A DNA stretch of 64,000 bases, from assembly GCF_905475395.1 (NCBI RefSeq), contig NC_058339.1:80194520-80258519 (forward strand), written 5' to 3'. How positions within the stretch are numbered: the stretch's first letter is position 1; every line of letters starts with the position of its first letter. The stretch comes from Chrysoperla carnea (taxonomy: Eukaryota; Arthropoda; Insecta; Neuroptera; Chrysopidae). The position numbers were made by a program, and so were the translations under genes. Positions 20,295 through 58,066 of the stretch are shown here, in pieces. The notes under the pieces are model-generated. The model was not told the origin of the DNA. It searched no databases and saw only the letters and a program-made list of their open reading frames with translations.

Positions 20295-20359
20295 AATAAA
20301 TTTCGACTTTTGCCTCAATTTCCTAGATAACTAGGAAATTGCAAAAATCGAAATTTATT
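20295..20359. repeat. 65-bp near-perfect hairpin
   Basis: The arms 'aataaatttcgacttttgc' and 'gcaaaaatcgaaatttatt' are reverse complements with one mismatch, and inside them 'aatttcctag' pairs with 'ctaggaaatt' around a 4-base loop. Direct copies of 'cctcaatgatata' lie outside at about 20230 and 20361. It may be a small foldback transposon or a structured transcript. Confidence 0.65.
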
Positions 20360-20869
20360 CCTCAATGATATAATTCGTAATATTTTTGTACTTTGTACAG
20401 TAGTTTGTTTATAAGCACAAAGCCTAGATTTTCCTTGGATATTTATTGCTTTAGTGTATGGAGTATAGAGAAGCAACTTAAAATTACGTTTGAAAGTTGC
20501 CTAGTTGTTTATGAACAAACAATTTCAACCTAATTGATTGATAGTTGGCAACTGAGAACTCTACTAGTTTATTTTGATTTTCTAAATGACCTTGCTTGTC
20601 TTTTGGTGAATGTTTCTTGAGTAATCGATTTGTTTCTAGAGTAAGCCGCTCTGAAATAACAACATCTTATAACATGTCCGCTTTTCAAAACGCTGAGGAT
20701 ATTTATAAATAGCAACGTAATTTTAAATATGCATTTCTTACAACATAATTTTAGATAAGAATTTCGATCCAGTACATTGGCCACTACAGAAGGTACGAAC
20801 TGATTGGTTAGTAATATGCGTAGCCAAAGTAATTTTAACTGACCAATAACAGCAATAATTTCCTAAAAT

Positions 20870-24710: not shown

Positions 24711-27700
24711 TTAAAAAATAGTTGAAGCGGCTTGGCGTACATCTCGATCTTTATCTGATTGTAGCCGTCGTAGCACCTTTAATAATGGTTCGTTGTGTAT
24801 ACAATTTGGATCTGCAAAATATTCTGCAAAATAAAGTATGTATTTTAAAAAAATATTTCTTTTTTACGTTAAATTCATATGTTGAAAAAAGAAAAATTGA
24901 GCAAGTTTTCCGAGGCAAGGAGGTTCTGCAATTCCTTAAGTAGATATAAGGAAAACGCAGCTATTAAACCGGTAATTTCAAAGTATTTACTAGCTGTTCT
25001 TGTGAGTTGACAATGCTTGTTTACACGGACGCTGGAAATGTCAGATAATAGCGCGTAACCGAGTAAAAGCACTAGCTTCGGCCGTGTGATATTTACACAT
25101 GGCACTATGAATGTCAACTCGCACTTTACAATGATATCTGTCATCTTTGTCATCTCTATTCGCATGAATATACTGCTTTTTTAACAAGTTAAAAGCCCTA
25201 AAAGCGCTCTAAGATTGTCGAGTTGGTATTGCTGTTCAAATGTTCACAAAAATAAATCACAGCTTTAAGTCTACCGCAATCAAAACCGGACAAGAGCGCG
25301 GGGATAGTTAATAAACTAATACATAGTAACAACTACAGCTGTTGAGCAATAATGAATGAGGTTCATTTTTTTAATTAGGTCAGCGTGAAAACGTTTATAG
25401 TTTGTAGTTATCGCAGCAAGTTGCTTTAATTCTTCGAAATTAAAAATTAAGTACCTGGATGGCCGAGCTTTGATCGTTATTATTTTTTTTAGATAAAGCG
25501 ACGTTTTCTAAAAATTAAACCTAGCTAGTACGATTTTTTGGCCCCGAAACCCCCTGCATACTAAATTTTATGAAAAACGTTCGAGCCGTTTCCGTGATAA
25601 AACGACGTTTTCTAAAAATGAAACCTAGCTCGATCGATTTTTCGACCCCGAAACACCATGCTTACTAAATTTAATGGAAATAGTTGCAGCTGTTTTCGAG
25701 ACAAAACGGCGTTTTTAAGAAATAAAACCTAGCTAGACCGATTTTCGGCCCCAAAAATCCCCTGCATACTAAATTTTATTAAAATCGTTGCAACCGTTTT
25801 CGAGATAAAACGACGTTTTTTTAAAAATAAAACCTAGCTAGATCGATTTTTTGCCCCAAAAACCCCCTGCATACTAAATGTCACGAAAATCGTTGAAGCC
25901 GAGATTCCAAATACATGCATACCAGAATTGCTCGTTTGAATACATAAGATTTATTAAGGACTTGGAAGAAGCTTAATCATCATTAAAAATTTGAACTTAC
26001 CATTTTTTAAAATGTTATTAGCTAATGTTTTAGCAACAGCTAATCGTACATTCGCTACTGGATCCCAACTAAGATCTAGAAAATGAGGCATTACATCTCT
26101 GGCAAAGGTTTCAGGCGGTAGAACATATTGTGTAACTAATTTTGCACATAATGTAGCAAACGTTTGTCGACGTACCCAACTTTTCGAATGTGCAAAATGT
26201 ACATTAAATATTTGTGCAACGTTTGGAAATGCTCGTTTATTTAACGATTCCGATTCCACGTGATGTATTAAATCAGAAACCTAGAAACAAATAAATTTAT
26301 TTTACACATTTTCTAATCAAACAATTAAATTAGTAAAACTTACCAATAAAACTGCAGCTGCTCGAACTGCAGCTACTTTATCTTGTAATAATTCTTTTGC
26401 TAATGGTAAAATATGTCGACCCACATCTCGACCCGTCCATAACGGTAATGAAAGTAATAATTGATTTGCTAATTCACAACGATATCGCCAATTTAATGCA
26501 GAATCGGTAACCAAAAATTCGGCTAAACGTGGTAAATATTGGTTACGTCTGTGAGGTGCAATAATCTGAAAAAAAGAAGTCAACATAAGTAACTGTTTTT
26601 ATTCGCAATTTTTTAATTTTAATGGCATCACAAATTCGAATTTTAAAAGGTTTATCTTGTTAATACACATTTTCCTGAAGTGTGTAGAAATTTCACGGTT
26701 TTTCTATTTAAATGTCAAAATTCAGACAAATTATTTACCTTCATAGATAAAAATTCAAAAAACAAGGTCCAGGGAAGACTATGGCGAAAATTCAAGGAAT
26801 TTCTATGGAGAGTTCCTGTGATGATGATGCTGAAAATTCAAGGAGTTCTTATGAATGAATAATGAACATTCAAGGAACTCAATGGATATGAAGAAGTTCG
26901 ACAATTTTAATAAGCCAAAAACATCTTCGTGATCAGGAAAAGTATAATTTTATGTTCGAACTCAGGGTAATACCGTGAAAGTTATATTAACTAACTAACC
27001 AGTGACCTTAAGAGTTAAAATCTTGATATGGGCCTCATTTTGACTCAATTTGTTATTAAATAAACAAGATTAAGCTTCGATAGGGCCAAAACAAATATGC
27101 ATGAACATAAAACTTTGTACTGGATCCAAAGTAAGGAGCGTAGGAAAGTCACTCATAACATGGAAACTTGTAGTGAAAAATAAAATAATTTCAGAAAACA
27201 TGGCATGAGCTTAATTAAAGTCTGCCTTTATTGCCTTTAATAAAAATAACTTCAAAGCATCCATATGGAAGTTTCACGTTAAAATAATATTTCGGATTGT
27301 TGAAGATCGTGTTTTTATTTTGTTCAAAAAATCTATTTATGGCTGATTTTGTGTTAATTCATCGAACTTTTATTCCATCTTCTTCCTCTAATAATTTTTA
27401 GATGCATTTTTATATCATGTATATATGAAATAAAAGTTTAGTCCCAAGTTTGTAACGCTTAAAAATATTGATGCTACGGAAAAAATTTTGTTATAGGTGT
27501 TCATAGAATCATCTAATTAGTCCATTTTTGGTTGTCCGCCCGCCCGTCTGTGAACACGATAACTCAAAAAAGGAAAAAGATATCAAGCTGAAATTTTTAC
27601 AGCATACTCAGGACAAAAAATGAGGTCGAGTTCGTAAATGAGGAACACAGGTCAATTGGGTCTTTGGTCCGTAGGACCCATCTTGTAAACCGTTAGAGAT

Positions 27701-30700
27701 AGAATAAAAGTTTATTTGTAAAAAATGTTCCTTATCTATTTAAAAATAAACAACTTTTATTTGAAACATTTTTTTGTAAACATCACTGCTTACTCACGAG
27801 GGCACACATTATAAAGGATGTGTAAAAAAGGAGTAAATGGATGTGTGTTACAATTCGCAAAATTTCATTACATGGCACTAGTTAGTGAATGAGATGAATT
27901 TCAACTCGCTGATTTTTCTGACATTTCAAGGATTTCCAGGACTGAAAATATTGTTTTTTAAGTACACTTTTTTAAATTAAAATAAAAACCTCACCACTTC
28001 GTCATAAAACTTAGACACGCGATCAAAGTGCAACCAGACACCAAACATGTATGATTGCAGAGTGCAAAGACTATTTACAGTTTATAATTTGCTGTAACAG
28101 AGATACATGACCGGATAAAGGAAATTTCTTTTCGATGCTTCAAAATGATATTAGATCGAGTGAAAAAAAGACGAAAATTCGACATACTCTTTTTTAAAAG
28201 ACATTTTCAGGTTTCCCAAAGGATAATAACCAAGGACATTTTCAGGGTTTCAAGCTTAAATAATGTTACCCTTCAGGAGTAGACTAGTTTTGACTAGTTT
28301 GAAACTAGTCAAAAGCAGCATTTTATGCAAAGAATAAAATATTATTATATATATAAAAAATAAAAATAATAAACTTACTTTAAAAAAGTACGCCATATGT
28401 TTCAAAGCACCAATTCGAACAACATCCACATCTTTAATTAAATCATCAAAAATTGGTGCTAAATGCTCAGTTGCTAATTTTTCGCCCAAGATAGTTGCAA
28501 CTTCATGTAACGAACCAGCAACAGCACGCCGTACTTTCCATTGTATATCAGCCGCTAATGTAATATACGTTTTATGTAATAGATCCCAATGATCTTTACC
28601 CAATGTTAATGCCACCGCTGGGAAACTAAATGCACAATGATAACTTAATTCAGCATCCGTTAACGATGCTAATACTGGATCAGTCATTGACGTGTAATGT
28701 TCGATTAATAATTGTGGTACAATATGCTGTTTTGGTGATTCTAAATGGCGTATGGTTGGTATACTTGTGTTATGTTTTAGTATTTCTGAGTACAGTTTCA
28801 CTGGAAAGAAAATTATTTTTATTAATTTTCTTTAGAAACTGTAAATTACAATAATTTTTTTTGGACTTAATCATAGTCTGCCTTATACAAAAATGTCTTC
28901 ACATTAAATTCGTATTGTATATGATATAATCATATGTATTTGAGTGTCCATTTACAAGCTAAAAAGAAGTAATGAATCTTTCAACAAGAGGTATTAATTT
29001 CCCACTTATATATCAGGTGTCAACATACAAACTTCATTCGATGCTGTTTGCCATAGAAAAACTATGAAATTTTCAAGTATGGATCGATACACTACGAAAA
29101 TGGTGAAAATATCGCTTCGAAGTTTTTTCTGTTATAGCGAAATTAATCGATTAATTCGAACGCCTTGGACAAGTTGGTGATGTAAAGACTTCAGCTCGAG
29201 CTGATTCAAATAGATCAACTAAAAATATCGCAGCTGTAGATGAGAGTGTGGCTGAAAACCCAGGTTTTTTTCATTTCAAGACGACCACAGAATTTGGGCC
29301 TATCCACGGCTACTTTGCATCGTATTTTGCATAAAAATATTTGCCTACTTGCTATAAGGTGCAAGATGCATGAACAAGATCATTAATTCTTAAAGAAAAT
29401 TATTCTGAGAGATGAGGCTCATTTTCATCTACCTGGGTAGAACGTGAATTATCAAAACTTTCGCATCTAGGGCTCCAAAAACCTACGATATATATTCTAA
29501 GAACAGAAGAATAAAAGAAGATTGGGCCACATTTTTTGAAATGATTCTGGTGCGACCGTTTCAGTAGAATGGATTAGGTTACCGAATGATGTTGATTGAC
29601 TTTTTTTGACCTAAAATTGATGCTATGGACGTTGAAGAGGTTTATTCTCAGTTGGACGGGGCCATTTTCCAATTCACAAAAATTTTGCGTTTTTAATTTT
29701 AAATGATACCTTCTTGTTGAAAGACTCTTTTTTTTATGACGAAATAGTTGAGTTTAAGAAAAATATGGATTAACACTTCTTTATGGATTAAGGACTTGAC
29801 GAAGTACTTAACAATCATTTCAAAAAGCTGGAAATTTGCTCGGTAAGCTTAAAACTGAAGGATTTTCACCAAGAATGGTATTCAAATTGTCAAATATAAA
29901 AATGCAAAAATCATCTTATTTGATATTTGTGCATTTAAAAGAATAGAGTATTATCGTTAGTCAAAAATAAATCATAAAATTTGAAAAAAGTTAAAATTTA
30001 TGTAAAAATATACTTAAATATTCTGATTTCGAGTCATAAAAGCACATTTTTCTTGTAAAATATTAAAATTAAAAATAGTAATTTTTAAACTGTATATCAT
30101 GTGACCTAAAATGCGGGTAAGCCCTGCTGTGATGTCATAGCGGCATGAGTCATAGACCATCAATTAGTTCACTGTAGACAGCTGGGTATTATGTAAACAT
30201 AGATAATAAGTATTTATATTTATTATAATCAGATGTCTATGAATATATCTGTTAAAGTTACTGTTATTTCATATAGTGATACCCATATTACGTCATCAAA
30301 TTGGATGCCCGCGTTTTTGACAGTTTAAAAAAGGTTTAAAATTTAATTAAGTTTTTGGCAAGAAAGCGTGTGTATTTTTCCGAAATAAATTTTTGTTGGA
30401 TTTTTTTTATTTTTTATCAACATTTTGAAGTACTTTTTCAAAAAAAGTGGAATACCCTATTCTTAGACTAAACTTTGACAAATGTTTCATTCGGAATTTA
30501 GTCATTCAGAGAGTTCAAATTAAGAGAGTTGGGATACAAATCCCCGAGTATTAAATAGTCAAATGAAGAAACTAGAGAGAAATCATAGACATTAATTTTT
30601 TTTAAAAGCTGTTAGAATAAACCTAGACAACTTTTCCATTCAGAACTCTGTCATTCAGAAAGTTTATATTAAGAAAGTTGGGATAAAAATCTCCCACGTA

Positions 30701-33700
30701 CTAAATAATCAAATGAAGGCACTAGAGAAAACCATTAACATAAATTTTATTAATAGGTGGCACTAAAGATTTCCTTTATTAAATTTTTTCAAAATTCCCC
30801 GTTAATTATATTCCTTGATAATTCTAAATTTTTGGCCACTGTATCTAATCAAAAGTTTGCCTAAAAACGGCAGAATTATACATAAAAAAATTCAACTAAC
30901 CTCCTCTATCAACACTTTCATTATCCGACGAAGTTGATGTTATTGTCATTGGTATTGTCGAATCTAGCATTATATTATGATCATCTAAAACATTCGTAGT
31001 TGTACACTCTTGCGTAAACGACGTCGAAGTTTTTCGTCCAGCCTCTACAATGTCCATATCTAATGGTAATTCAGGACTAATATACCAAAATTGGTGTGAA
31101 TTATATTTTTCTAGATCATCACTTGAATTATTACTAGACTCATCAATATTCTCAATTTTTACATTATCACTAAAATTATTTATTTTTTCAATATCATCAC
31201 TAGTCGGTTCTGGTTCACTAGGTGGTCTTGGAGGAGGCGGTGGTGATTCACTCTTATTATTATCATCTTGCTCATCTTGACTATTTATATTAGGTACTAT
31301 ATCTGTTGTATTTGTTGTCTCACTAAGATTTAACGTAGATAAATCATTCGTTAATGCGTTTACATCATTCGTTAACGCATTCTCGCTATCTAAATTTATT
31401 TGAACTAATTTTTTTTTAAGAATTAATTCTTTATGCGTTTTTTTATTACGTCGACGTTCCTTATTTTTATTACGCGGTTTTAACCATTCTTCTTTACTCT
31501 CTTCTTGATTTATAACTATAGATGGCACCGGAGGTTGAGGTGGTGACAATTCCTCGACTGTATTATTCGTTTGATCGTCAGCACCGTTGACTAAGATCAT
31601 TGTTGGACTTGGTGCTGTTGATTTTTCCGTATTTTCAATTATAACTATTTCGGACACCTCTTCATCAATTTCCATTGGAGATGATTTATCACCCCCACCG
31701 CTACTATGATTTGGTGATAGTTCCTCATTTTCCCTATTAATTAACGTAAAATTTTCTTTCAAGATATTTTTCATTAAATTATCAGACGAAGGATTGATTT
31801 CGGATGGGGATATAGTGGTTATGGTAGAAATAATTTTTTGGACATCTTCTTCAGAACTTCTTGTTGTGATTGTGTTAAGAAATTCACGAAGTATGGATAA
31901 AGAATCGGTTTTATCACATGGAGACGATGTCGATGGTGTAACATTCGAGGAAGGAATTGAGTTCGATATGATTATATCCGGTATATTTTGGACATCATCT
32001 CCATCGGATTTGTTTTTATCGATTGTGTTAAAGAATTCACGAAGTATTGATGGAGACGAGAATGAACTGGAATTGATAGAATTGTTTTCTTGTGCTGGTT
32101 TTTGTGTTATATTTTGGACATCATCTCCAGCGGATTTGTTTGTTTTATCAATTGTGTTAAAGAATTCCCGTAGTATTGATGGAGATGGGGAGGAAATGGA
32201 ATTAATAGGATTGTTTTCTTGAGCTTGTTTTTGGGTATCATCAGCAGCAGTTATATCAGTGTCTTGATTAAAAAATAATTTCAGATCATTATTTTCAGTG
32301 TTATTGTTTGTATCATCAAAATAACGTACATATTGATTATCTTCAAAATAATTATGATTATTTGAGTGTGATTGAGAAGAGGTTGAGGCTGAATTTGAGG
32401 ATGATTTTGGTGTATTATAATTGTAATTATTAAAATAATAATTTGTATATTTATTATTATCATCCAAAAATAAATCTGTAAATGCAGGTGAATTTAATCT
32501 ATAACAATAGAGAAAATAAACGATATTCTATTTAAATAGTTACAAATTGCTTATTAATTATTTTTTAAACATAACGAAATTTTCGGAATATTACTTGCCT
32601 GGGTCTAGTCCAGCTGTTTAACGGGGTCTTTCACAAGAGGTGTCATTTTAAATTAACTATCTTTCTTTTAGGTGTCAACATAATGACGTTGGAAAGAAAA
32701 ACTAGATTTTCGCGAAACTATAATGAAATGAATCGATAAATTCGAACGTCTCAGACAAGTTTATGATCTAAACAATTCAGCTCATTTTTGTTCGACTAGA
32801 TCAACTGAAAATATCGCTTCCGAAGCTGAGAGTGTGAGTGAGAGAAAACCCAGGAAGACCCAATTCTTTTTTCTTTGAGGCTAAGTTAAAAATAAAGTTT
32901 AAGCCCATGCTCCGCTAAATATTCAATCACGCAAAGATAATATTACAGCTGTTATTCGCAAGATACGGCGGCAATTACGCGGAAATATAATGAAAATTTT
33001 AATCAAAAGAATGACCATTTTTTAAGGAGAATCGCGGCGGATATTTACAAAATATTATGTTACATTACTAACTTCAGAGTTTGTATTTTGAATTAACATA
33101 AAATTATGAGCTTTTTTCACAAAAATATTGTGTTTTTTCTTTTTATTTTAGATGATACCTCTTGTTCAGAGACTCTGAATTTGACAGTTAAATTCAGAAT
33201 GAAAAGAAATTTGAAAAAGCTGCTGTTGTCAAAATCAACCGTAAAAATTTTTCTTCTGCGAAAATATTCATAATTGGAGATTGCTCTTTTAGAGCGGAAA
33301 GGATACGCGAGAGTTATAATTACTAATTTATACAGATATAGAATTAACATGAATAATAATACAAGGGATGACAACTTTACACCTCAGAAAAAAGCCTTCC
33401 CTATGGCATCTATTTCAAATTGAGATAAAATTTTGCACGAACAGAATGTGATAACTTAGATAATCCAAGTTATTAACTGATATGACGGGAAAAACTGAGA
33501 TTATTCGGACTCTATTCATAATTTCATAAGGTTTAATTAAAACTGGACCGATTATTCATATTTTCGAGTTATAAAAGTAAGTTGAAAAGTAAAAATAGCT
33601 TAACGATTGTCCACGCAAATATATTCCAGTTAGATGTGTTGGATTAATTGATCTAAAACTTTTCCAAACCAATTTGGGGGTGCTTCTACAAATAGAATTT

Positions 33701-36700
33701 AGAAACAGTGAAAACGGGTAATGTAATTTGTGGTAAAATAGGAAAAAGGAAATGCAATAATGTAGAAGCAATTTACGAGAGTTATTAGTGAAAAACAAAA
33801 TGTTTCTTTACCTAAATTCAGTTCCCTTAGGATTAATTATCACTAATTCACCAGTTTGACTGTACGCAAGACCAGTGATACGTGGATTAGCGAATGTTGA
33901 AATAAATGGTCCTAAATTTTGAAATGCAGAAATCCGCACCCAACGTGATGTATCATCTAATAATCGTTCAAATGCTGGTGCTAGTGCCGTTCGTCGCAAA
34001 TGAGGTGGACATGCACACGATACTGACATTATAACTTCGGCGCAATATTTTCGTACACCCCAAATATCATCATCACATAATCCAATAAATCGTGGTAGCT
34101 ATAAACAAAAGAAAAAGTATTTAGTTTTTAGGATTCTGAAAAGAAAATAACTTGGTTCATATTTTTTCATTTGAATTTGCACTATCCTTATTACAAAGAG
34201 ATCTTCTAGAGCCTTTTCCTGAAAACATTCCTATGTGCCTCTAGAAATAATGCCTTTTTAAAGCTATGCCTTAAAAAATTTTTAACACTGGAGTTTAACG
34301 AGAATTTACTACGGTCAGATATTGAGCTACTGAGCTACATTACGTCAGAAATTTTTTTTACTAAACAATTTTAATTTGTAATACTTACAAGAATTTTTTC
34401 ATATGCTTCGCTACCGACAACCGCACAAAATTCTCCAATACTGGCTGCACACATTTTTCGAACAGAGAAACGATCATACGAGCATAACTCCGAAAATCGA
34501 TTTAAAAATAAGCGTTCCGTTGCGTCTTTGCCTAATAATGGTGCCAATTTTGACATAAACTAAAAAAATAAACAAAAATTTAAATAAAAAATCGTTTTTT
34601 TTTTTTTTTTTGAAAAAAAATTAAATAATAAAATTTTTTTAAATTCGAACAGATGATTTGTGGATCTTTACGCTCATCAAAGCTGGCTGTGATATGATTG
34701 ATAAAAAAATAACATTTCACATCCAGTTGATGACCATAACTAACCAGGTTTTAAATTTTTCAAAAAATTTTCCTCGATGATTTCTTGGCTTGATGATTTT
34801 ACATGATTTATCGCTCATCAAAGCTGGCTGTGATATGAAGCTAAAAACATTTCACATCCAGTTGATGAGAGATATAAAATGCAATTTTTCTAAAGATGAT
34901 AATCCAATTCCGAGCTTCCCTTTACACATGCTTAACATGCACCACTGAACTCGTCAAAATGGCTGTGATATGAATTTGTAAACCAACATTTCACAACCAT
35001 TTTGTCGATTGAGTAATGCATAACGATGGAAAAAGCTGAAATGAAAAATGTTGCTGGAAAAACACGTCAAGCTCATCAAAGTGGCTGTGATATGAATATC
35101 AAAAACAAAACATTTCACAACCAAATTGATGAATTGAAATGATTCATATTTTTCGATTTTTTAAGAATATTTTGTATGTAGATTATTTTCATAATTGTGC
35201 TCATCAAAGCTGGCTGTGATAGATTTGTTAAAATATATCTACAACAACCAGGTTAGATGCCACAATCATGAAACACGCTAAAGTTGATTTTCACTTGAAC
35301 TAGCATGAGGCGATGTTTTAGCCCACCTATTTTAAACCCCCGAACCAAAAAGAAGGATGTTATAAGTTTGACCTATGTGTGTGTGTGTGTGTATCTGCCT
35401 GCCTCTGGCATCGTAGCTTCCTAAACAGATGAACTGATTTTGGTTTTTTATTTTTGGAAGGTTATTTAATGGAGAGTGTTCTTAGTTTAACAAAGAAAGG
35501 AAATGAACAATAGCACTATTTATAGGAGTAAAAACGTTTGAAAAAGTAGGTTCATAACCCCAAGAAACATAATTACTTAACTATTTTTTTGGAATTTACA
35601 GGCAAAATTTTGAATGCATTTACTATCTTGCTTCCGATCCAAAACTGATATACCAGTCAGAAACTGGCTAAGGTGTTGACTTATGTCCAGGAATCTGAGC
35701 CGAATTCTCGATTGCTTCTTGCCAAAATTATTGGAAGAAGATTATGCGAAAATTTTTGAGAATTTCTTAAATGTTTTAGATACGTTTACATGAGGGATAG
35801 CTCTGTCTCTATGAGACAGGTGGGGGCGTAAGGGTTTAAAAGACTAGTGAATAAGTGTTGGAAACCTTAAGGAAGACTTCTCACACTATCGCCTGATTAA
35901 TATGTAAAGTTATTATCAACAGATTTGTCTCTATATTCAGCCAAAGGTTTTCATTTAAACTCTTGGCTGGGTAATACGACAGAAAAAATGTTTAAAATTT
36001 CAATAGAGAATTTTTATTTTTCAACAATTTCACTGTAAAAAAATTAAGTAAATTAAAATGAAGATGGCTGTGGTTTCGTCTAAATTGCTCCATGAAAGAC
36101 AAGGTAGTGAGACGGAATCATAAAAATGGAACATCTCACTACCCATGTCTTTCATAAAGAAAATAGATTTTCCCAAAGTAAAAAAAAACTACAAATTATG
36201 AAAAAATTGGAAGAAATTTTTTATTTATACTACTTACATTTATAGCACCAGCAACATAATCCTCAGCATTCGTTAATTCTTCCGATGAATTGACATAATC
36301 TCGGGATATTTCCAAAACAGTAGGACACACTTTTAATTCCACCGTATGTTTCGATACGAGATTATGTTCCATTAATACTAATAGTGTGGCTTGTGATGTT
36401 TTTCGAACCTATAAAATGAATCCAGAAAAAAAAATAATTAAAAAAAAATTGGTAATAAAAATTTCAAATTGAGGATTTTTTCGGGCGTAATCATAGTCTG
36501 CCTTATACAAAAGTGTCTTCATATTGAATTCGTTTTGTATATGATATAATCATATTTGTTTTTTTTAACGTCGTACCTATTTATAAGCTAATAGCAATAT
36601 TTTAAAAATTATTCACACGTTAAAATGATTGTATTATTTTAACAAAATGTTTTCAAAATTTTCATAGATCCTCTTTTTGGACTCGCTCAATTTCAAAATC

Positions 36701-39700
36701 TGTTTAAAGCAACAATTAACGTCAAAATAATGCAATTACATGACATGTTAGCTTGTAAAATGACACAGCGTATTCTTTGAAAAAAAAAAAGAAGATAAAT
36801 ATACTTTTTAACGGTATAAAATAACTTAACTACTGACCTGAGTATCGGTATCTTTAAAACAATTGACTACTAATGGCAGTAAATACTTTTCAACAGTTTC
36901 CGTCATTTCAGGAATGTTTGATTCCATACATACTACAGCCAGTTGTGGTATTTGTTCGATTAAATCTGTTTTAACTAATGTTGCTGAAACAATAAGAAAA
37001 TTTACAAATTAATTTTCAATTATAATAAAGTTTTTTATTATATTTTCATTATGGTTTTTTACAATAACCAGAGTGCACAAAAGTTACGAAAATTCAGTTT
37101 ATTTAACAAAGATTTTCTAGGAAATTTCGCCAAATTGATCTAAGAAATGCTACCCTTCTACGAAATTTTGCACGATATTTCACGATTAGCATCCATCCAA
37201 TCATTAAATGAATCTTTTTTTTTTTGTAATTTTTGGGCCAAAATTACCTTAAGATACTAAGGTTTTTGTGATTGGTGACAAAGGATTTTTCTAGACTTTT
37301 TTCAATTTTTATTGGGCTCTGCTTTTATTTATCTCTTTTGAAAAAATTTAAAAAACATAAAAAAGTTATTGATTAGAAATTTGACACAAATTGATTTATA
37401 AAGTAATTATGACCCGAAAATACAAAAATGGATTTCATTTCATGATTGGATGGATACTTTTTGACATATCGGTCAAAATTCCATACATTAAGGGCTTCTT
37501 GGATAGATTTCAGGAAACTTATTGATTGATCGGACATTTACTATGGTGATTTCCTTAAATTCTTTATGAAGCCCTGTACAGATAAGCAAGATATGCCGAA
37601 GGTATTTCGAGAAGGCTCATTTAGATAAACGGAGTTCCAAAAACCCCAAAAATTATTCATTGATAAAATCGAAAAATCATAAAAAAAAATTGGTCTCATT
37701 TTATATAAAAATTATTTTGTACTATTTAATTCTTTTACAATAAAAGCGTGTCTTTTTTTAAACGTAGAATTTTCTACGTTAAGTTTTCACCAGACGTATG
37801 ATCTATTTTATGCATTAGTATTTCATCTTACGAAATAATCTAATTGACAAATTAAAATCTAATTTATTACTACAGTCTTCGATTTTCTTTCTAGATATGT
37901 TGTAAAATCTTTATTTTTATTTTTTTTAAATTTTTATACAAACAACTATATAAATCATTAGTTTGAAAGGCGTTGTCTATGACCTAATTTATAGGATATG
38001 CTTTTCAAAATAAATGAATAAATTTAAATAAAGGTATAGTGTAATTTCTCATTTTCTTATCCTTAATTTTACCTTTTGAATGTCTGATATACCGTGGGCG
38101 ATTGAGGAAAAAACTTAGAATGCAAAAATATTAAGCCTGACATTTAAGGGAGATGTGCATGTAACAAAAATACAAGGTGGTTTTCTTGGAAACGACATAT
38201 ATAAAATGAAAATGTGTTGTAATGGGTGCTGTGGAAATAACAAGTCAGTCGACATGGAGAGTTCATTACAATTCAGTGCGAAAAGTTTTTGAATTTCGAA
38301 GAGATACGAATATATTTGGAAAATGAAGATTGTAAATGGATTTTATGTATTTTTCTTAAACAGTAAAATATGTCAAATCTTTCAAAGAATTCACCAAGTG
38401 ATGTTTTTATTGTATCGAACCTACAGAGTACAACGTTACAAAACTTTCCCAAATTTTTTAGAAATTCATACAAATTAAATCCACACTAGTACATGATAAA
38501 AGATCAAATGTACGGTTTTTTTGGGCACTATTAATGTTTGTACCATTGATTTTTATCCCCCGAACCAAAAAAGGGATTTTTTAAGTTTGACCGCTATGTG
38601 TGTCTGTCTGTCTATGACATTGTAGCGCCTAAACGGATTAACCGATTTTGATTTTTTCTGTTTCGTTTGAAAGGTAATTTAATGGGGAGTGTTAAATACT
38701 TAAATAATACGTTTTAAGTGCGAGTTTAGTTTTTTAATTTTGTAAATTTCACTGGTAATAAAAATTTGCTACGATTTTTTCTCTAGTATTATTATGAAGT
38801 TAGGAACCAAAAGTCACGAAAACCGATTTAATTCAACTAGTAGACCAATATTTTATTGCGTTTCATATAAAATTTTGAACGATATTTTCGTATTATATAA
38901 CAAAAATAAAATTATAATTAGTACAATTTTTTCTAGATTAAAATTAAAATCATAACATGAAGTCAACAGTACTTGAACTCGAGTTGAATCCATAACCTAA
39001 CTAAATAAATATATTTAACTTGTAGTAAAAAAAAATCTACTATAAGCTTAGTTTTCTCGTACAAACAATTTTACCAGCTTAACCTAGTATCTACTATTTT
39101 ACTATTTACTATAATGAATATGAGAGTTAGTTGTATACAAATATTAATTATATAATACTTGTTAGGTTTATGTAATAAAAAAAATGTCATTAATGAATAA
39201 AAACATTCGTCATCTAATGCTTGTGTTTAGGTGTAGCGTCGTGTCGCTCACTACTCGGTTCGCTCTCATCCTCGACGAAACAGAAATATGTATGGTATTT
39301 TCAATACTAGAGGAGTTCTCTTATAACATAGCGTCGAAGTCGACAAGAAATATTATTTAAACGTACACCCATCGTACAGCATCTCTAATATAAACCGTCC
39401 TATCATTGTTAGTTTCTCTCTATTTCGCTCATGTTTCTAAGTTTTATTATTCTATGTCTTATAAAGTAGAACGTTTAAGAAATTTTAAAAACTTAACGAT
39501 ATTTTTCAATTTGTATAGAGATACATGTTTGATAAGCACTCATATAACTCAAATGGATTCAGGGTAGTCAAAACCAACATTTCTATTGAAAACTATAAAT
39601 CGAAAATTTTCCATTTATGTTCAAGGAAGGTTTAAAAGTCGAACTGCAATGAAATTTCGAGACTAATTGGTTTTTGAGTTAGGTAATGGTCGCAGTTAGC

Positions 39701-42700: not shown

Positions 42701-45700
42701 TTTTTGCTTTCAACGTGAAATTTCATAAAACTTATTGTAAAAAACGAAACCTTTAAAATTTTCAACACAAACCAGGCTTATCCAGGGTACAGTCAACCAA
42801 GGATTTTTTTAATACTATTTTGCTCATGATTAATGCTTGGGTCTTAAGAAAATTCAGTTTAATTGGCTATTAGACAAAAAGGGAAAAGTATTGGAGAGGA
42901 AAATGGAAGAGAAACATGTCAAATGTAGTAAAATAAGACCTTTTAACAATTTTTTGAAACCTCTCCTTTACATGTCAAGTGTTTAAAGTCTGGGTAATAC
43001 TGTGAGAGTTATTGGAATTCTTTTGAAGACAATGAAGATAATTCAAGAAGTTTCAATGACGATAGTAATGAAAATGCAATGAAATCAGAGGACTTGATGA
43101 TTTTTGAAAATTTTATTTGTGATCAGAAAAAAAATATTTTTATGTTCGAACTCAGGGTAATACTGTGAAAGTTATATTAACTAACTAACCAGTGACCTTA
43201 AGAGTTAAAATTTTGATATGGGCCTCATTTTGACTCAAATTTGTTATTAAATAAACAAGATTAAGCTTCGATAGGGCCAAAATTTATGAAAACTTTTATT
43301 AGATAAAGCAGCAGACGCACAAGGAATATTTTCACATGAACTAAATTTTTAAACACTTATATAAAGTTGCATCTATTGAGTATAAAAATTAAAAATGCAA
43401 TTTTATGACTAACTCTTTGTAATATTAATAACAAAACATTATTCAATAATTTAGTTTGACATATTTTCGATATGTCGATACCATAAAATTCGATAGTAAT
43501 TATTACAGTGTATATCCACACTTTTCAAGTATGAAAATTATATTATTTTATAATAAAATTCATTAACGATTTTTAAATTGTTCATAATTATTACTTAAAA
43601 ATTTCGATGTCATAGAACTTATTGACACTAAATTAGATAGGAAAAACATTATAACACCCTGATACGAATGTGTTTTAATTATCATGGTTTGAAAACTGTC
43701 CAAAAAGTTCATTCACACCCAAATATTCATTCAAACATTTTATTTGGCAAGAGGGACACGCCAAAATGTTTTATATCATATTTGTCATGCCAAAATATGT
43801 CATGAGTCAATTCATATAATGAATATTGGTGACCTTAAATTATGTATAACTAAAGTTTATGCCAAAAATTTCCCTTTTTATAACTTTTTCTCTGGAGGAT
43901 TTATCATTTATGCAACAATTTCTTCAGTAAGATTTCATCAAATGGCAGATTAACGTTACAATAAAGTAAATTTCTCAATACACTTCTGGGAAAGTGTCCT
44001 TTTCATTATACAAAATGAAGAAATTTTGGAAGAAAAAGTGAAGTTTAGTGAATATTGCCCAAGTGCCTGCTAGGGCGAGGGATTCTTCATGATTTAAGCT
44101 TTATGGTGATCAAGTACGAAAACTAACGGTAGAGGTACGGTGTGCAAATATAGGTAATAACAATGTGCAATCCTTGGAGTATTGTTAGCCAAATTTCCAA
44201 TTTTTCCTAAGCATCATTTTTGGCAATAGTCATAGTAATATTCATTTTCAGCCCATGAATAAAAAAAATGTGGTGTTATAAGTATGTGTGTCTGCCTGCC
44301 TGATGTCTAATTTTGATTTTTTGTTTCGTTTGAAAGGTAATTTATTCTTAGCTATGTTTCAATCGATGGGATCAGATCGATGGAAAAGGCTCTAAAGAAA
44401 AAGGTTTATTTACTAGAGTTCTTAGATTCGTTTCAAGTGCGAGTTTAGGGCTCCGTATCCAAAAAATTTCTCGGGGTTTTTTAAATTCACTTGTTTCTAA
44501 AATTTGTTCACCCCGTGTCTAGAAAAGGACGTTTTCTCGGCTATAAGTATATTGTTATAAGCTGCGCCTATTGCTATAATCTATCTACCATTTCTTCTGC
44601 TGTTATAATTTGGATTACTTTGCACATCTTAACGGAAATCAAAAGTGAAAGGAAATCAAAAGGTGAAATTTTTCCTAAAATTATTATTTGTTTTGTTCTT
44701 TGAAATTTAGGGAGTAGGAAAGTGGAATAAGTAGCTTTTCTAAGTGGAATTAAACATAATCAAGCATGATTTTTCCAGAATAAAATTATGATAGGTTAAG
44801 AGTGTAAAAAGTAGGGTTTGAAAAGCATATTTGGATTTTATTTCTTCCAAACATAATAAGGTAAAAATCTGGAAAAGTAAAATTTTTTAAAGGTTTCTGT
44901 TTTCTAATAATTTTTTTAAAGAATCGATCAAACAATAACCTTCTGCGTTCAGATAATGTAACTAAGACTGTCATCTCTGATGTATGGAACCCGCTATCGA
45001 ATTTAAATCACAGCGCTTCGATATAAAACGACAATCTTCAGTGTAAACTTAACGTATTACATCTCCCGTTATTTACGATAAAAAATCAACGATGAATTTA
45101 ACTAAAAGTTTTACAAAAATACAACCGTTAAAGAATTGAAAGAAACGACATAACATCTTTTTAAACTATATTGCACACACAAAAAATAGTAAAATAGTAC
45201 ATCATAATATTCTAGTGAAAATAATCGAGTAAGACGAGAAACATCATCACCAAGACCAAGAAGACCAAGTGCTGTTTTGCTTATAGTGCTAGGTGAGTGA
45301 GTGAATAAGGTGATGGCAGATTTTGTCCCGTACCTACACATGTACGCGTTTCTCGTTATGAGTGGGAATGGTGGATCAATACCCTGCCTGTGAGGCACCG
45401 CCATTCTGAGCGCATCAACCCCATACATATATTCACATACATATTCTCTGTGTGCTCTCTTGTTCGTATGATATCGGTGTATCGTGTATATCGTATGTAG
45501 TACTTTTATTGTATTCGTTTACTATGTGTGATCACTTTCACAAAAACCCAAGAATAAAAAATCGTTTTATTAACAAATTATAATCGACCCTGTTCGAATT
45601 AAGTGTTTCCAATTTATTTAAAATTTTTAATGTCGATTGTTAACATGGATTGTTAACTAGATAAACAAGGGAAAATGAAAATTTCGAAATAAAAAAAAAA

Positions 45701-48700: not shown

Positions 48701-51700
48701 TACAATTTAAATTGTTTGAAGTAATTATGATATTCTCTTGTATAAAACAGTATGAGCAGGCAAGTAGGACAAATTTTTTGTGAACAATTATGAATAAATT
48801 TCAAAATTGAAATTTTTACCATGCCTTTATAAGTCCTTTTACGAACCCGTTTAAAATTTAAGCACTTTCAGTTTTAATTGGCGAAAATGCCGATCAGATG
48901 TAACAAAAAAAAAAAGTTTTAAGTAAAAATGATTGAAAATTTAGACTAGAAACGTATTTTGGAGGAATTCTAATCATTTTTTGAGAATGGTGAGAATCAT
49001 TAGTCTCGACCCTTATTACGGGCTACCATTCAGTTATGTAATTAATACGTACAATCCAATCAGTCTTATGGCGTGAATTTAACATGTCCATCTTGCCAGA
49101 CCGTTCCTTAACTGTGTTTCAGTTTGATTATAACATTATATTTTAATTAGACAATTTATCATATGAATCACGTCAAACAGGTAGTTACACAAAATATCAT
49201 TTGTATTTTCAAATTTAGACAAGAATTTTGTTTTGATTATTAAATAAACAATAATTATTGTCATTCATTTTATTGGTTACTTCCGTGACACTCTTATTTC
49301 AAAATTAGATATTGAAACCATTATTAAGGGCCATAAAACTGTTTAATTGTAAACTTTTTATGGATACTAAAAGTTTTTGCTTCCCGATTTTTGAATATGA
49401 TGCCGTTTTTTGGAGTTAACTGTAAATTTTAAATACAGAAGAGACTTTCAGGTACAATTGGTGGAAGTGGTTATAGGTACATTAAAGTGTGACCCATGGT
49501 AAACTATAATTTTATCAATAGTTGTTTTTATACTCTAGCTGCGCCCTGCGTTGTTATCCGTGATTAAAAAAGATTTTGAGTTTTTATCGTTACTGTGTAA
49601 ATTAATCAAGCCTTCTTGAGAAAAATGCGTTAAGAATTTATTTCACGAACTTCAACATAATCCTTTAAAAAAACTCGTTTCCTGTATGCTATCCCATAGA
49701 AACCGTGCATTTTTCTGGGATAAAATTAGCCTATGTCATTTTCTGACCCATAAATTATCAATCACAACTTATGAAAATCATGTTGATCCTTTGCTCAATG
49801 AAAAATTTAAAAGTTGTCCTACGGGAATCAAACATTACCAGGATAAAGAGTAGTCTAGGTGCTAATTCCAGACTATAATCTATCTCTGAAGTTGATAAGG
49901 GTTTGTTCAGTTTGTAATGTTTTCGATTTCAAAACAAAAGAATCTTCCAAACTGTTAAAAAAAACTCGGATTGTATTATTCGTTTGTTGTTGTTGTTGTT
50001 TAGAAGTATTAAGGAATTTTTATGAGACAAACAACAAGACTATTGAACTTTTGAGTGTATATTAATGTATGTATTATATATGTGAGTTAGACAGGAATTA
50101 AAGTTTAGTTATTTATTTTTAGCGTTTGTTGAATTGTTTTCTACGTTGCGTTGTAATGAATTTATTAATAGATATAATACTCATCTAAATACCATCAATT
50201 AATAGGTCTATATTCATTTGTCTCTAATTTTGCCATATCTCCCCAAATACTAAATTATGTTCACTTAGAGAATCATTTGTTTACTTCATTCATTTTATTA
50301 ATTTTATATAAAATAACTTAAAAATAACAAAATTTTATAAAATTTATTATCTGTTTTCTAAAAGCCTATAAAGACGTTCAATAGTAAAATGGTTTTTCTT
50401 ATAAATTCAATAAAATTGTATATATAGGATTTAATAAAAGTATTCTGGATTTAATAAAAATAAAGAAAAAATTTGCATTGCTGTAGATTGAGATTTTAAT
50501 TTAACAATCAAATAGTTCATAATTAACATGCTAGAGATACTAGAGTATTAAAAAAAAAAAAAACAGATACTTTTCTATATATCTCGAAAACGGTTCTTAT
50601 TATTTTTTCAAAAAACAACGCATTGAAACGTTATGATGAAGTTTTTGATACCAAGAAAGCAATTTTTTCCTTTCTTGTTAAAATGTTAGATACAACAAGT
50701 GAAAACAAACAATTGACTGAGTTAATTGTTGATATACTATGTATTGACAGTGTTGACTACTCTGTCATATTACGCATACATATGAGCTCTCACGGGTAAA
50801 TAGTAATGTTTACGAAAAAATGTTTCAAACAAAAGTGGTATATTTTTTTATAAGAAACATTTTTTACATTTAAGTTTTTGTTCTACCTCTAACGGTTTAC
50901 AATTGACCTATGTTGCTCATTTACGAACTCGACCTCACTTTTTACGCCCTCAGCAAATTTCAGCTTGATATCTCTTTTCGTTTTTAAGTAATCGTGATGA
51001 CAGGCGGACAGACGACAGACAAACAACCGGAAATGGACTAATTAGGTAATTTTATGAACACCTAGACTAAAGTTTTGCTCATAGTATCAATATTTTTAAG
51101 CGTTACAAACTTGGGACTAAATTTAGTATACCTTGGTATATTCCATATACATGGTATAAAAATCATAAATTATAATTCGTAAAAAAAGTTAACAATTCAC
51201 AAATGTGTTTAAATATTGGGGAATTAAATATTTGAAATATACTTTTTTCAAATTGTGTTAGCTTACTTCTGAGAATCGAATTAAATATTCATTGAAATCG
51301 AATGCATTCTCTTCAAAACATCTATTTATGCATTTCAATAATTTATTTAGATAAATCGTACTACAATTTGGGGTTTAACGTCTATAGTAACATCAAAAAA
51401 TACAAACTATAATGTTTTCCAGTAAAAAATTTTATGTATATAAAATCGCAATCGATTTTTGTTTTGATCAATAAGTAATTAACTTTTGAGGGAAGTACCA
51501 TGAAAATGGAAGTATTATGTGGAAAACTCTCGTTAACGTTGTTCCACCTGTGTATTTTATGGAAATTGATTTAACCATCACAGTGTATGATTGAAAAAAC
51601 AAACATCCGGATATTTTCCCTTCTGTAATATATTAATCAGAACTGAAAAAGGATTTAAATGGTTTTAAGGCAAGAGGAGGAAGATTTTATACACAATACT

Positions 51701-57700: not shown

Positions 57701-58066
57701 CTTGGTTCGGTTTCCCGCCAATGATTACTACTTCAAATTTCTACGAACTTGTTTTTAATGAACTATTTTTATAATTCTTATAAATTATTTCTTATGAAGA
57801 AAAATAATGACCCTTAAAATAGAGAATTTTTATATTAAGAAAACGTAACATGATTAAACACACGCACCATAAAAATTTCATGGTAAATAATTGAATAATT
57901 CTTTAATATTAAAAAAAAAAACTATATAATAAAGATTCAACACTTACTATCAGCGTTTAATATTCCTTCAACCAAATTCATGATGGCAGGTAAATCTTTC
58001 AAATAGGCGCCACCGTTGGCACTAAAGTCGCGCATCACCTGCAACAATACGCCGCCCACCATCGGT
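24711..58066 (-). CDS. PPP4R1: Protein phosphatase 4 regulatory subunit 1, 5' partial
   Basis: Ten exons in transcript order: 58066-57948, 36983-36838, 36408-36238, 34559-34389, 34098-33812, 32498-30901, 28800-28379, 26565-26344, 26280-26001, 24823-24711. All are GT-AG with matching phases, giving 1175 visible codons to the TAA. Residues 1-298 are HEAT-type repeats (KTDLIEQIPQLA, VRKTSQATLL, SVRKMCAASIGEFCAVVG, DIWGVRKYCAEV, WVRISAFQNLGPFISTFANP). Residues 299-830 come from one 1.6-kb exon: Asn/Ser-rich, disordered, with a tandem SILREFF motif and a conserved FW...PLDMD block. Residues 831-1175 are HEAT again (YTSMTDP, VALTLGKDHW, QWKVRRAVAGSLHEVA, NWRYRCELANQL, DVRQAAS). The layout equals human PPP4R1 (950 residues), a scaffold for the PP4 catalytic subunit; the insect linker is longer. 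The exon at 58066 begins inside a codon, so the N-terminus lies further upstream, most likely beyond 64000. Exon 34560-36237 intron hosts microRNAs. Confidence 0.93.
25492..25902. repeat. Tandem array, about 4 copies of a 104-bp unit
   Basis: The phrase 'aaacctagct' starts at 25517, 25621, 25725 and 25830, giving periods of 104, 104 and 105 bp. Each unit carries 'taaaacgacgttttctaaaa', 'gatcgattttt', 'ccccctgcatactaaattt' and 'aaaatcgttgcagccgtttt'. Copies differ by scattered substitutions. The array sits in the last PPP4R1 intron. Confidence 0.9.
26951..27091 (+). repeat. Family D copy 1, near-identical to 43141-43282
   Basis: About 141 bp starting 'tatgttcgaactcagggtaa' and ending 'taagcttcgatagggccaaa' differ from the copy at 43141-43282 by only about two substitutions and one inserted base. 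Upstream flanks are loosely similar in both places ('attcaaggaa', 'gatgat'). Both lie in PPP4R1 introns, in the same orientation. Confidence 0.9.
27412..27815 (-). repeat. Family B copy (inverted), partial
   Basis: The stretch 'agtttagtcccaagtttgta' onward, with 'ggtgttcatagaatcatcta', 'gaggtcgagttcgtaaatga' and 'aacatttttttgtaaacatc', is the reverse complement of three copies at 50690-51175, 59785-60335 and 61390-61980. The end carrying the 'aattgactgagttaattg' palindrome is missing here. Confidence 0.85.
28868..28935. repeat. Family E copy 1, upstream of PPP4R1 exon at 28800
   Basis: A 68-bp block 'taatcatagtctgccttata...' matches 36488-36555 with about four differences. On the minus (gene) strand it lies about 68 bases upstream of the 3' splice site of exon 28800-28379. 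Confidence 0.85.
28974..29727 (+). mobile_element. Tc1/mariner-type (DUF4817-linked) transposon relic, copy 1
   Basis: The ends form terminal inverted repeats: left 'gaatctttcaacaagaggta' (28974-28993), right 'taccttcttgttgaaagact' (29707-29726). The plus strand encodes, in broken frames, a short R-x-x-x-NIAAVDESVAENPG block, then DEAHFHL (29411-29431 region), N-x-QNFRIWG-like residues and a decayed QxDGA motif. This order is that of DDE transposases found with DUF4817 helix-turn-helix domains in many arthropods. Stops and frameshifts are numerous. It lies in the PPP4R1 intron 28801-30900. Confidence 0.75.
32624..33175 (+). mobile_element. Same transposon family, internally deleted copy 2
   Basis: Terminal inverted repeats: left 'gggtctttcacaagaggtgt' (32624-32643), right 'gatacctcttgttcagagac' (33154-33173), matching those of the copy at 28974-29727. 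Inside, the 5' coding part is preserved (residues around RSTENIASEAESVS), but the DEAHFHL part is gone. It lies in PPP4R1 intron 32499-33811. Confidence 0.75.
34668..34738 (-). ncRNA. mir-2: miR-2 precursor hairpin (3p mature), fifth in the miR-2/13 series
   Basis: The mature 3p arm is the reverse complement of 34672-34694 (23 nt), starting UAUCACAGCC and continuing AGCUUUGAUGAGC, identical to the insect miR-2a form. The 5p arm is at about 34711-34733 (minus strand 'tcatcaactggatgtgaaat') and pairs with it. The loop is about 16 nt. The seed AUCACAG defines the miR-2/13 family, which in Drosophila targets pro-apoptotic messages and in cockroach Kr-h1. Confidence 0.95.
34809..34876 (-). ncRNA. 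mir-2: miR-2 precursor hairpin, fourth in the series
   Basis: The mature 3p arm, reverse complement of 34813-34835, is identical over all 23 nt to those at 34672-34694 and 35199-35221. The 5p arm is at about 34848-34870. The outer stem 'ttatcgctcatcaa' pairs with 'ttgatgagagataa'. The loop is only about 12 nt. Confidence 0.95.
34945..35016 (-). ncRNA. mir-13: miR-13b-type precursor hairpin, third in the series
   Basis: The mature 3p arm is the reverse complement of 34948-34970, reading UAUCACAGCCAUUUUGACGA then GUU, the miR-13b form. The 5p arm at about 34986-35009 reads 'tcgacaaaatggttgtgaaa' on the minus strand and pairs through the whole mature length. It has the same AUCACAG seed as its neighbours. 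Confidence 0.95.
35066..35137 (-). ncRNA. miR-13a/miR-2-like precursor hairpin, second in the series
   Basis: The mature 3p arm is the reverse complement of 35070-35092, reading UAUCACAGCCACUUUGAUGA then GCU. It has the family seed but 'CCACUUUG' in the centre, between miR-2 and miR-13; databases use both names for such forms, so I leave the symbol empty. The 5p arm is at about 35109-35132. The outer stem 'tcaagctcatcaa' pairs with 'ttgatgaattga'. Confidence 0.93.
35190..35269 (-). ncRNA. mir-2: miR-2 precursor hairpin, first in the miR-2/13 series
   Basis: The mature 3p arm, reverse complement of 35199-35221, is the same 23-nt miR-2 as in two downstream hairpins. Its 5p arm (about 35235-35260, minus strand 'gcatctaacctggttgttgt') differs strongly from the other passenger arms, which share 'gtgaaat'. 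The outer stem 'ttgtg/cacaa' extends the fold. Confidence 0.93.
35330..35500 (+). repeat. Family A repeat with (TG)n, between miR-71 and miR-2
   Basis: The copy starts 'ccccgaaccaaaaa', continues 'ataagtttgacctatgtgtg', a TG run at 35375-35392, then 'catcgtagct' and 'gaactgattttggtttttt'. The same order occurs at about 12822, 38555, 42360 and 44262 (plus) and 54085 (minus). It lies inside the microRNA intron. Confidence 0.75.
36086..36160 (-). ncRNA. mir-71: miR-71 precursor hairpin
   Basis: The 5p mature is the reverse complement of 36131-36154: UGAAAGACAUGGGUAGUGAG then AUGU, the canonical invertebrate miR-71. The 3p arm is the reverse complement of 36091-36112: UCUCACUACCUUGUCUUUCA then UG. 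The arms pair almost perfectly around an 18-nt loop. It lies about 820 bp upstream, in transcript direction, of the first miR-2 hairpin, which is the known miR-71~2~13 gene order of invertebrates. The splice acceptor of the host intron is far downstream; the donor is only about 80 bases away (exon end at 36238). Confidence 0.97.
36488..36555. repeat. Family E copy 2, upstream of PPP4R1 exon at 36408
   Basis: This is the partner of 28868-28935 with about four differences in 68 bp. On the gene strand it lies about 80 bases upstream of the 3' splice site of exon 36408-36238. It contains the palindrome 'atgatataatcat'. Confidence 0.85.
38555..38720 (+). repeat. Family A repeat copy
   Basis: It reads 'ccccgaaccaaaaaaggga', 'aagtttgaccgctatgtgtg', 'tctgtctgtctatgacattg', 'gcctaaacggattaaccgat' and 'gtttcgtttgaaaggtaatt'. 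It is the best-preserved copy in the window and serves as the reference for the family. No coding capacity. Confidence 0.75.
39195..39450. other. Less AT-rich island in the large intron
   Basis: The stretch 'gtgtagcgtcgtgtcgctca', 'ggttcgctctcatcctcgac' is visibly richer in G+C and CpG than its flanks. There is no open frame or transposon motif that I recognise. It may be an enhancer or an alternative first exon of PPP4R1; this is inference. Confidence 0.3.
41820..42160. other. CpG-rich island with GCGGCGCGGCGCGG
   Basis: The block has 'acgcggcgcggcgcggatac' (about 41841-41860), followed by pyrimidine/purine-mixed sequence with many CpG and GTA steps up to about 42150. It is unlike the AT-rich neighbours. 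No coding pattern is seen. A regulatory region is possible. Confidence 0.3.
42355..42470 (+). repeat. Family A repeat copy (diverged)
   Basis: Recognised by 'ggctgtctgtgac', 'cacgcctaaacagctgaacc' and 'aattttgatcaatttcggtt'. It is shorter than the copy at 38555. Confidence 0.55.
43141..43282 (+). repeat. Family D copy 2
   Basis: Near-identical partner of 26951-27091, about 16 kb away and in the same orientation. Shared words include 'ttaactaactaaccagtgac' and 'gatatgggcctcattttgac'. Such high identity amid decayed repeats suggests recent copying or gene conversion. Confidence 0.9.
44262..44430 (+). repeat. Family A repeat copy
   Basis: Recognised by 'gtgttataagtatgtgtgtc', 'tgcctgcctgatg', 'tttgatttttt' and 'gtttcgtttgaaaggtaatt', then 'cttagctatgtt' as in the copy at 12822. 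Confidence 0.65.
45210..45540. other. Less AT-rich island with an antisense open frame
   Basis: The block includes 'accaagaccaagaagaccaa', 'gtgaggcaccgccattctga' and a 105-codon minus-strand open frame (45428-45111). The frame shows no family motif and does not match the missing PPP4R1 N-terminus. It may be a regulatory region or an unrecognised untranslated exon. Confidence 0.3.
46360..46650 (-). repeat. Family F repeat (inverted copy)
   Basis: On the plus strand it reads 'gggatagcatacaggaaact', 'gtgcatttttctcaagaagg' and 'cttgaataatttacacagta', the reverse complement of words at 5890-6310 and 49555-49870. Confidence 0.7.
48265..48370 (+). repeat. Dispersed repeat, inverted partner of 690-800
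   Basis: It contains 'atacgttaatgatgcgttat' then 'cacacgt', then 'tttgtcatggctta' and 'attaaaaaagttact', the same word order as on the minus strand at 690-800. Confidence 0.45.
49555..49870 (+). repeat. Family F repeat
   Basis: It carries 'aatcaagccttcttgagaaa', 'ctgtatgctatcccatagaa', 'ttgatcctttgctcaatgaa' and 'accaggataaagagtagtct', in the same order as in NAE1 intron 7. Confidence 0.7.
50690..51175 (+). repeat. Family B repeat, about 480 bp
   Basis: It begins near 'acaattgactgagttaattg', passes 'ctcatttacgaactcgacct' and 'ggaaatggactaattaggta', and ends with 'cttgggactaaatttagtat' and a small palindrome 'taccttggtatattccatat'. The copies at 59785 and 61390 have the same ends. It is non-coding and behaves like a MITE or Helitron-like element. 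Confidence 0.85.
53660..53810. promoter_or_regulatory. Candidate regulatory island with ETS-like sites and an E-box
   Basis: CTTCCGG (53675-53681) and its inverse CCGGAAG (53740-53746) flank a CACGTG palindrome (53705-53710), in a CpG-bearing stretch within very AT-rich DNA. These cores match ETS-type and bHLH E-box sites. The stretch lies 4.1 kb downstream of the first visible PPP4R1 exon. Regulatory role is inference. Confidence 0.3.
54085..54200 (-). repeat. Family A repeat (inverted copy)
   Basis: It reads 'gaaatcggttcatccgttta', 'gactacgatgtcacagacag' and 'acacacacgtta' on the plus strand, the reverse complement of the family A core. Confidence 0.65.
54920..55290. repeat. Family C (pogo/Tc1-like, non-coding) repeat
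   Basis: 'aaggtcccaactgaat', 'tgctatagcgaccaatattc', 'attggttataacgacttacg', 'attatagcgatcaat' and 'gtgtacatacaaacatactt' occur in this order; the same series is found at 58555-59145. The ends carry 'acgac' and 'gtcgt' words in opposite orientation. The 101-codon open frame here (55025-55330) is a by-product. Confidence 0.6.
56165..56370 (+). repeat. SINE-like or RTE 3'-tail fragment
   Basis: 'ttatagcacatgtgctagtc', 'gtgaatgccctctattattg', 'ttttaatcaaatacattcag' and 'tagttttagcgtgaatgcgt' form the layout of the common insect repeat tail in which 'ttcagtagtttttgcgtgaa' precedes an AT-rich end. It is related to the tail in NAE1 intron 7 near 6230. Confidence 0.5.

Follow-up and report, generated by a model that had tools for sequence, protein, structure and literature searches.

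The association of mir-71 and mir-2 microRNAs (miRNAs) with a phosphatase gene has been described in several animals. In the honey bee, mir-71, mir-13a and three mir-2 copies were reported in 2007 from intron 3 of the gene GB15727 (PMC2394756), and in Caenorhabditis elegans mir-71 and mir-2 were placed in two introns of ppfr-1 (PMC2835999, 2010; PMC3410857), which is the worm ortholog of PPP4R1 (PMC4138081, PMC7735605). In 2014, the Pacific oyster was reported to carry six mir-2 copies in a PPP4R1 intron, with host-like expression, and this position was proposed to be the ancestral one; according to the same paper, mir-2 is intergenic in most animals studied (PMC4138081). Regarding the origin of the cluster, mir-2 is reported to have arisen within the mir-71 transcript, with later loss of mir-71 in several lineages, including Drosophila, and Marco et al. 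2010 and 2012 are cited as the main papers on its evolution (PMC3763532). In addition, a paper on the western corn rootworm states a scaffold for four arthropods, namely mir-71, mir-2, two mir-13 and two mir-2, and reports that expression of the mir-71, mir-2 and mir-13 families is correlated across six stages of this species (PMC9170749). The subject of the present analysis is a window of 64,000 nucleotides from the green lacewing Chrysoperla carnea, of the neuropteran family Chrysopidae (contig NC_058339.1, positions 80,194,520 to 80,258,519; all coordinates below are those of the window). We read the locus as the conserved protostome mir-71~mir-2 cluster, lying in sense orientation in one PPP4R1 intron, with six precursors predicted to be processed from the intron RNA, and give this reading a probability of roughly 0.88.

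The minus strand of positions 34300-36500 holds six hairpins, in the order miR-71, miR-2, miR-13a, miR-13b, miR-2 and miR-2, all of them within the intron 34560-36237. Thus mir-71 leads and the mir-2 family stands behind it on the same strand, which is the arrangement that characterizes the protostome mir-71~mir-2 cluster. The mir-71 hairpin (36086..36160, minus strand) scores 72 bits against the Rfam family RF00832, whose curated gathering score is 50, and folds at -41.1 kcal/mol (z -10.7). Behind it, on the same strand, come mir-2 copy 1 (35195..35264; 31.9 bits, -33.1 kcal/mol, z -6.9), mir-13a (35067..35136; 66 bits, z -6.4), mir-13b (34945..35012; 64 bits, z -6.1), mir-2 copy 2 (34809..34872; 54.1 bits, z -5.5) and mir-2 copy 3 (34668..34737; 58.3 bits, -25.4 kcal/mol, z -4.5), where the bit scores refer to RF00047, the mir-2 family. 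Four of these five copies, at 54.1-66 bits, pass the gathering score of RF00047 (45.5), which is a detection threshold and not a biological feature, and copy 1 is recovered at permissive thresholds. From the mir-71 end, the spacings between hairpins are 821, 58, 54, 72 and 71 nt, the first of these (35265-36085) being the widest by far. The initial annotation, which was made from the sequence alone, had claimed six minus-strand hairpins at this place, each folding with its opposite arm, and the Rfam search (five of six above threshold) and a folding check, in which none of 200 shuffles of any hairpin was equally stable (z -4.5 to -10.7), bear it out; its outer limits for the cluster, 34668..36160, and for the 1,678-bp intron are accurate to the base.

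The mature arms are those of known insect miRNAs. The 5p arm of miR-71 (36131-36154) is the same as bmo-miR-71 over 24 of 24 nt, and its 3p arm (36091-36112) the same as dvi-miR-71 over 22 of 22 nt; a 22-nt miR-71 pattern with up to three mismatches allowed finds one match in the window and none in 100 shuffles. The 3p matures of mir-13a (35070-35092) and mir-13b (34949-34970) are letter-identical to dvi-miR-13a and dvi-miR-13b. The arms checked are therefore exact matches, where an exact or almost exact match had been claimed, and only one label needs correction: what was called a miR-13a/2-like form is a hairpin of the cluster, as proposed, but letter for letter it is dvi-miR-13a. One 23-nt mature form, which we take to be insect miR-2a, is common to the three miR-2 copies (3p at 35199-35221, 34813-34835 and 34672-34694, the latter two located by exact search), and a miR-2 pattern matches these three (expected 0.01) and not the miR-13 copies, whose sequence has one base fewer at this place. 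All five mir-2/mir-13 copies have a 3p mature that starts with UAUCACAGCC, presumably the start motif of the 3p matures in this family, and that pairs with the opposite arm of the hairpin. The 5p arms of the six hairpins were derived by the rule of a 2-nt 3' overhang, with an independent check for miR-71 only, whose derived and cloned 5p arms agree within 1 nt. With these derived arms, every hairpin has a lower stem of 4-9 pairs and 12-19 nt between the arms. Loops and flanks vary among the copies while the mature arms stay exact.

The host gene is PPP4R1, because the joined exons are identical to the annotated C. carnea protein, which also maps onto the exons of the window by tblastn. The two exons that flank the host intron, 36238..36408 upstream and 34389..34559 downstream, both on the minus strand, join in a single open frame, and their splice sites fit the consensus. 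The intron itself (34560..36237, minus strand, phase 0, GTAAGT...TTAG) follows residue 202 of the annotated PPP4R1-like protein (P0001), as exon joins and tblastn agree, and the joined exons are identical to this protein without a break over their first 258 residues; the claim of a same-strand PPP4R1 host thus stands. The PPP4R1 proteins of other named arthropods are 40-57% identical (counting matches that span 95% or more of the 250-residue query). By tblastn, the part of the annotated protein from residue 57 onward is encoded between about 58066 and, for the C-terminal end, about 24711; a search with exact six-residue words did not place residues 1-56 in the window, and they probably lie beyond position 64000. 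If they form one exon, the miRNA-bearing intron is intron 4 and the exon upstream of it is exon 4; by the same count, exon 3 is 36838..36983 and exon 2 is 57948..58066, both on the minus strand and separated by an intron of 20,964 bp (36984-57947). The other coding exons on this strand, 33812-34098, 30901-32498, 28379-28800, 26344-26565, 26001-26280 and 24711-24823 (with the stop codon), were placed by the open joined frame, the splice consensus and tblastn. The nearest relatives of PPP4R1 with a solved structure, by sequence, are scaffold A subunits of PP2A (18 distinct sequences), a likeness expected for a HEAT-repeat subunit.

Hairpin RNA is processed into mature miRNAs by Drosha and Dicer. 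In the mechanism that we propose, RNA polymerase II transcripts that cross the intron would be cut by Drosha, before or during splicing, to release six precursors, from which Dicer would produce one miR-71 and five miR-2/13-family guides with the common seed AUCACA; these guides may then repress targets of the K-box type. We consider it rather probable that much of the cluster RNA comes from PPP4R1 pre-mRNA. The distance from the 5' splice site to the mir-71 hairpin is 77 nt, and 108 nt separate the last hairpin from the 3' splice site; the host pre-mRNA is favoured as one source because those 77 nt leave little room in the intron for a promoter above mir-71. Additional internal promoters besides the host transcript are quite possible, since the distance from mir-71 up to exon 2 is 21.8 kb and that to the start of PPP4R1 probably exceeds 27.8 kb, the 21-kb intron lying in between. 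On the proposal of the initial annotation that transcription and splicing of PPP4R1 probably set the miRNA supply, the published evidence is split: mir-2 in the oyster tracks its host (PMC4138081), whereas intronic sequences in C. elegans drive their own patterns (PMC2835999). Three points weigh against our reading. The first mir-2 copy (35195-35264) remains under its Rfam threshold, 31.9 against 45.5 bits; the intronic upstream sequences of worm mir-71 and mir-2 drive patterns that are their own and differ from each other (PMC2835999); and strong co-expression was reported for only 21 of 76 miRNA-host pairs in the oyster, so PPP4R1 does not represent the usual situation there (PMC4138081).

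The strongest rival, possible but in our view the less probable account, is that most transcription of the cluster starts at a promoter, or at several, within PPP4R1, in which case its supply would be largely independent of that gene. Candidate sites are the 21-kb intron 2, the 429-bp intron 3 and, for the miR-2/13 part, the 821-bp gap. The worm provides most of the support, as the upstream sequences of mir-71 and mir-2 give distinct GFP patterns there, that of mir-71 overlapping the pattern of ppfr-1 only partly (PMC2835999), reporter activity is obtained with a 2.4-kb region above mir-71, and a tir-1 phenotype is suppressed by deletion of mir-71 but not by deletion of ppfr-1 (PMC3410857). 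For worm mir-71, cloning data favour an intronic promoter, although the authors leave room for the host transcript too (PMC2835999, PMC3410857), and they deem own promoters less likely for intronic miRNAs that lie near exon boundaries (PMC2835999). Such a boundary is close in the lacewing, where the 77 bp from the 5' splice site to mir-71 are too short to hold an ordinary promoter within that intron, and the oyster mir-2 copies follow their PPP4R1 host with a best r of 0.93 (PMC4138081).

The same rival draws on the distribution of PPP4R1 among insects, a distribution that would be expected if the cluster could outlive its host. No dipteran or lepidopteran name appears among the named PPP4R1 relatives in three sets of matches, comprising all 105 of 105, the best 120 of 375 and the best 120 of 702; the relatives among the matches listed are from a flea, beetles, sawflies, wasps, bees, cockroaches, termites, stick insects, a cricket, thrips and plant-sucking bugs. 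Mosquitoes, in turn, retain mir-71 together with mir-2 and mir-13 (PMC4112208, PMC2797818), as does the silkworm (PMC9170749), and the loss of the bee host gene is stated for Drosophila only (PMC2394756). If PPP4R1 is truly lost in flies and moths, then the cluster can persist without its host, an argument against strict dependence on PPP4R1; however, the absence rests partly on the matches listed and on a search that required shared five-residue words. Were the loss real, PPP4R1 would be an old but dispensable carrier, and the orders with and without it would form a natural test of whether the cluster needs the host promoter.

An unlikely variant is that both sources operate, with the host pre-mRNA giving a basal supply of all six miRNAs and a promoter in the 821-bp gap giving extra miR-2/13 without miR-71. 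This variant overlaps with the reading that we prefer, and the odds of the two need not sum to one. In its favour, the worm mir-2 shows a pattern of its own, mainly neuronal and different from the pattern of mir-71, with which it shares the host gene (PMC2835999), and the gap is the widest in the cluster, at 821 nt versus 54-72 nt, with more than 15 kb reported at the same place in the silkworm cluster (PMC9170749). However, part of the lacewing gap is a dispersed repeat (35329..35480, strand not assigned; 76% over 157 columns in a self-comparison), so the length of the gap requires no promoter.

As to chance, 12,786 80-nt windows were scanned over both strands of the 64 kb, and the number at least as stable as a given hairpin was 1 for miR-71, 7 for miR-2 copy 1, 10 for miR-13b, 14 for miR-13a, 16 for miR-2 copy 2 and 25 for copy 3. 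Of these last 25, the cluster hairpins themselves account for 12 (8 in sense and 4 in antisense orientation); the other 13 lie elsewhere, including five on a single palindrome at 20281-20380. Because 13 of the 25 lie outside the cluster, stability alone fails to single out the weaker copies, which are set apart by their exact mature arms. That the hairpins have no function, as relics or as inverted repeats arisen by chance, a reading that can point to this lack of unique stability for the weakest copy, is extremely improbable in view of mature arms kept exact between differing loops and flanks, folds far more stable than shuffles, and Rfam scores above threshold for five of six.

Several other observations concern the cluster, its gap and its host. 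No Rfam match, to E = 1, lies wholly within the 821-bp gap on either strand. A further miRNA in the gap was considered on the sense strand and set aside, as the best windows outside the hairpins, 35911-35990 (-18.4 kcal/mol) and 35661-35740 (-17.9 kcal/mol), are far weaker than the six hairpins; on the antisense strand, 35911-35990 (-24.2 kcal/mol) and 35791-35870 (-22.0 kcal/mol) come near the weakest mir-2 copy (-25.4 kcal/mol). A transposon-like sequence is reported within the mir-71/mir-2 cluster of the German cockroach (PMC5121899). Weak Rfam matches at the hairpin sites to mir-67, mir-11, mir-2944, mir-2567 and others are far below threshold and were taken as shadows of the true families. 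The antisense of mir-71 (36087-36161, plus strand) scores 48.9 bits against the threshold of 50 and folds at -30.7 kcal/mol, and an antisense use of the locus is conceivable. The palindrome mentioned above, below the coding end of PPP4R1, contains an inverted copy at 20295-20359 and folds down to -34.5 kcal/mol, like miRNA hairpins.

Regarding PPP4R1 itself, its central exon (30901-32498, minus strand) is of low complexity and rich in Asn, Ser and Asp, with repeats at 31982-32104 and 32108-32233, and the annotated isoform X2 starts this exon at about 31735 instead. An 80-bp piece occurs twice with 91% identity, at 28856-28935 and 36476-36555, in each case 55-70 bp upstream of a PPP4R1 exon. 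Autoregulation of PPP4R1 by miR-2 is not claimed: the minus strand of the window has five UGUGAUA 7-mers, of which one, at 24035, is situated 676 nt past the final base of the PPP4R1 stop codon, and the transcript may already end before it, by way of the AATAAA or ATTAAA words of 24555 and 24521.

Among the neighbouring features, two borderline Rfam matches to SNORA16 (43138-43282 and 26948-27091, at 35.3 and 35.1 bits against a threshold of 35) lie on a 167-bp repeat present in two copies that are 95% identical, which favours a dispersed repeat over a pair of snoRNA genes. Downstream of PPP4R1, the stretch 14423-18630 (minus strand) encodes TPR repeats and four GoLoco stretches, a domain pair that suggests the gene which we take to be Pins/GPSM2 (Rapsynoid). 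Finally, a repeat family of several hundred bases, with members 74-88% alike, has at least four copies, at 59885-60329, 61536-61972, 50770-51175 and 27395-27811.

Set beside the known systems, neither the cluster nor its host link is new, and the lacewing adds a further, well-resolved example of an arrangement that is old and already known. The initial annotation had treated the host link as a point to check in other insects; it had already been reported in the honey bee in 2007 (PMC2394756). Our literature search returned no paper that combines Chrysoperla, microRNA and mir-71, and for mir-71 together with PPP4R1 two papers, on diabetes lncRNAs and on retrocopies, though Marco et al. 2010 and 2012 may state the host link more fully. 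In bee and lacewing alike, the same families lie in one intron of a serine/threonine phosphatase gene, described for the bee as lost from Drosophila and with vertebrate orthologs known; from this description GB15727 would be PPP4R1, a name not used for it in the relevant passages (PMC2394756). The bee intron lists five members whereas the lacewing has six, and one mir-2 of the bee has been reported from the opposite strand (PMC9170749).

The annotation had also called the cluster order the ancestral invertebrate one. This is partly right: the six-member order is the published scaffold of four arthropods, with the same order and copy number and with identical miR-13a, miR-13b and miR-71-3p matures (PMC9170749), but it does not extend to C. 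elegans, which splits mir-71 and a single mir-2 over two introns (PMC2835999). The scaffold paper makes no mention of introns or host genes (0 occurrences), and spacing and extra members vary by species, with more than 15 kb after mir-71 in the silkworm and an added mir-3842 in the red flour beetle (PMC9170749). Drosophila shares the mir-2 family with the lacewing; however, it is without mir-71, its cluster is split, and the host genes are different ones, spitz for the mir-2 cluster and CG7033 for mir-13 (PMC3763532, PMC4138081).

Outside the insects, the worm likewise has both families in the PPP4R1 ortholog, with the difference that two introns and one mir-2 are involved and that separate promoter activity has been demonstrated (PMC2835999). 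The oyster shares with the lacewing a mir-2 array in a PPP4R1 intron, whereas the term mir-71 is absent from the main text of the oyster paper (PMC4138081). From the protostome ancestor onward, the cluster has apparently stayed with one host, and the main use of the lacewing locus is as a reference point for asking whether a long-kept intronic cluster depends on the promoter of its host, a question on which C. elegans speaks against and the oyster for.
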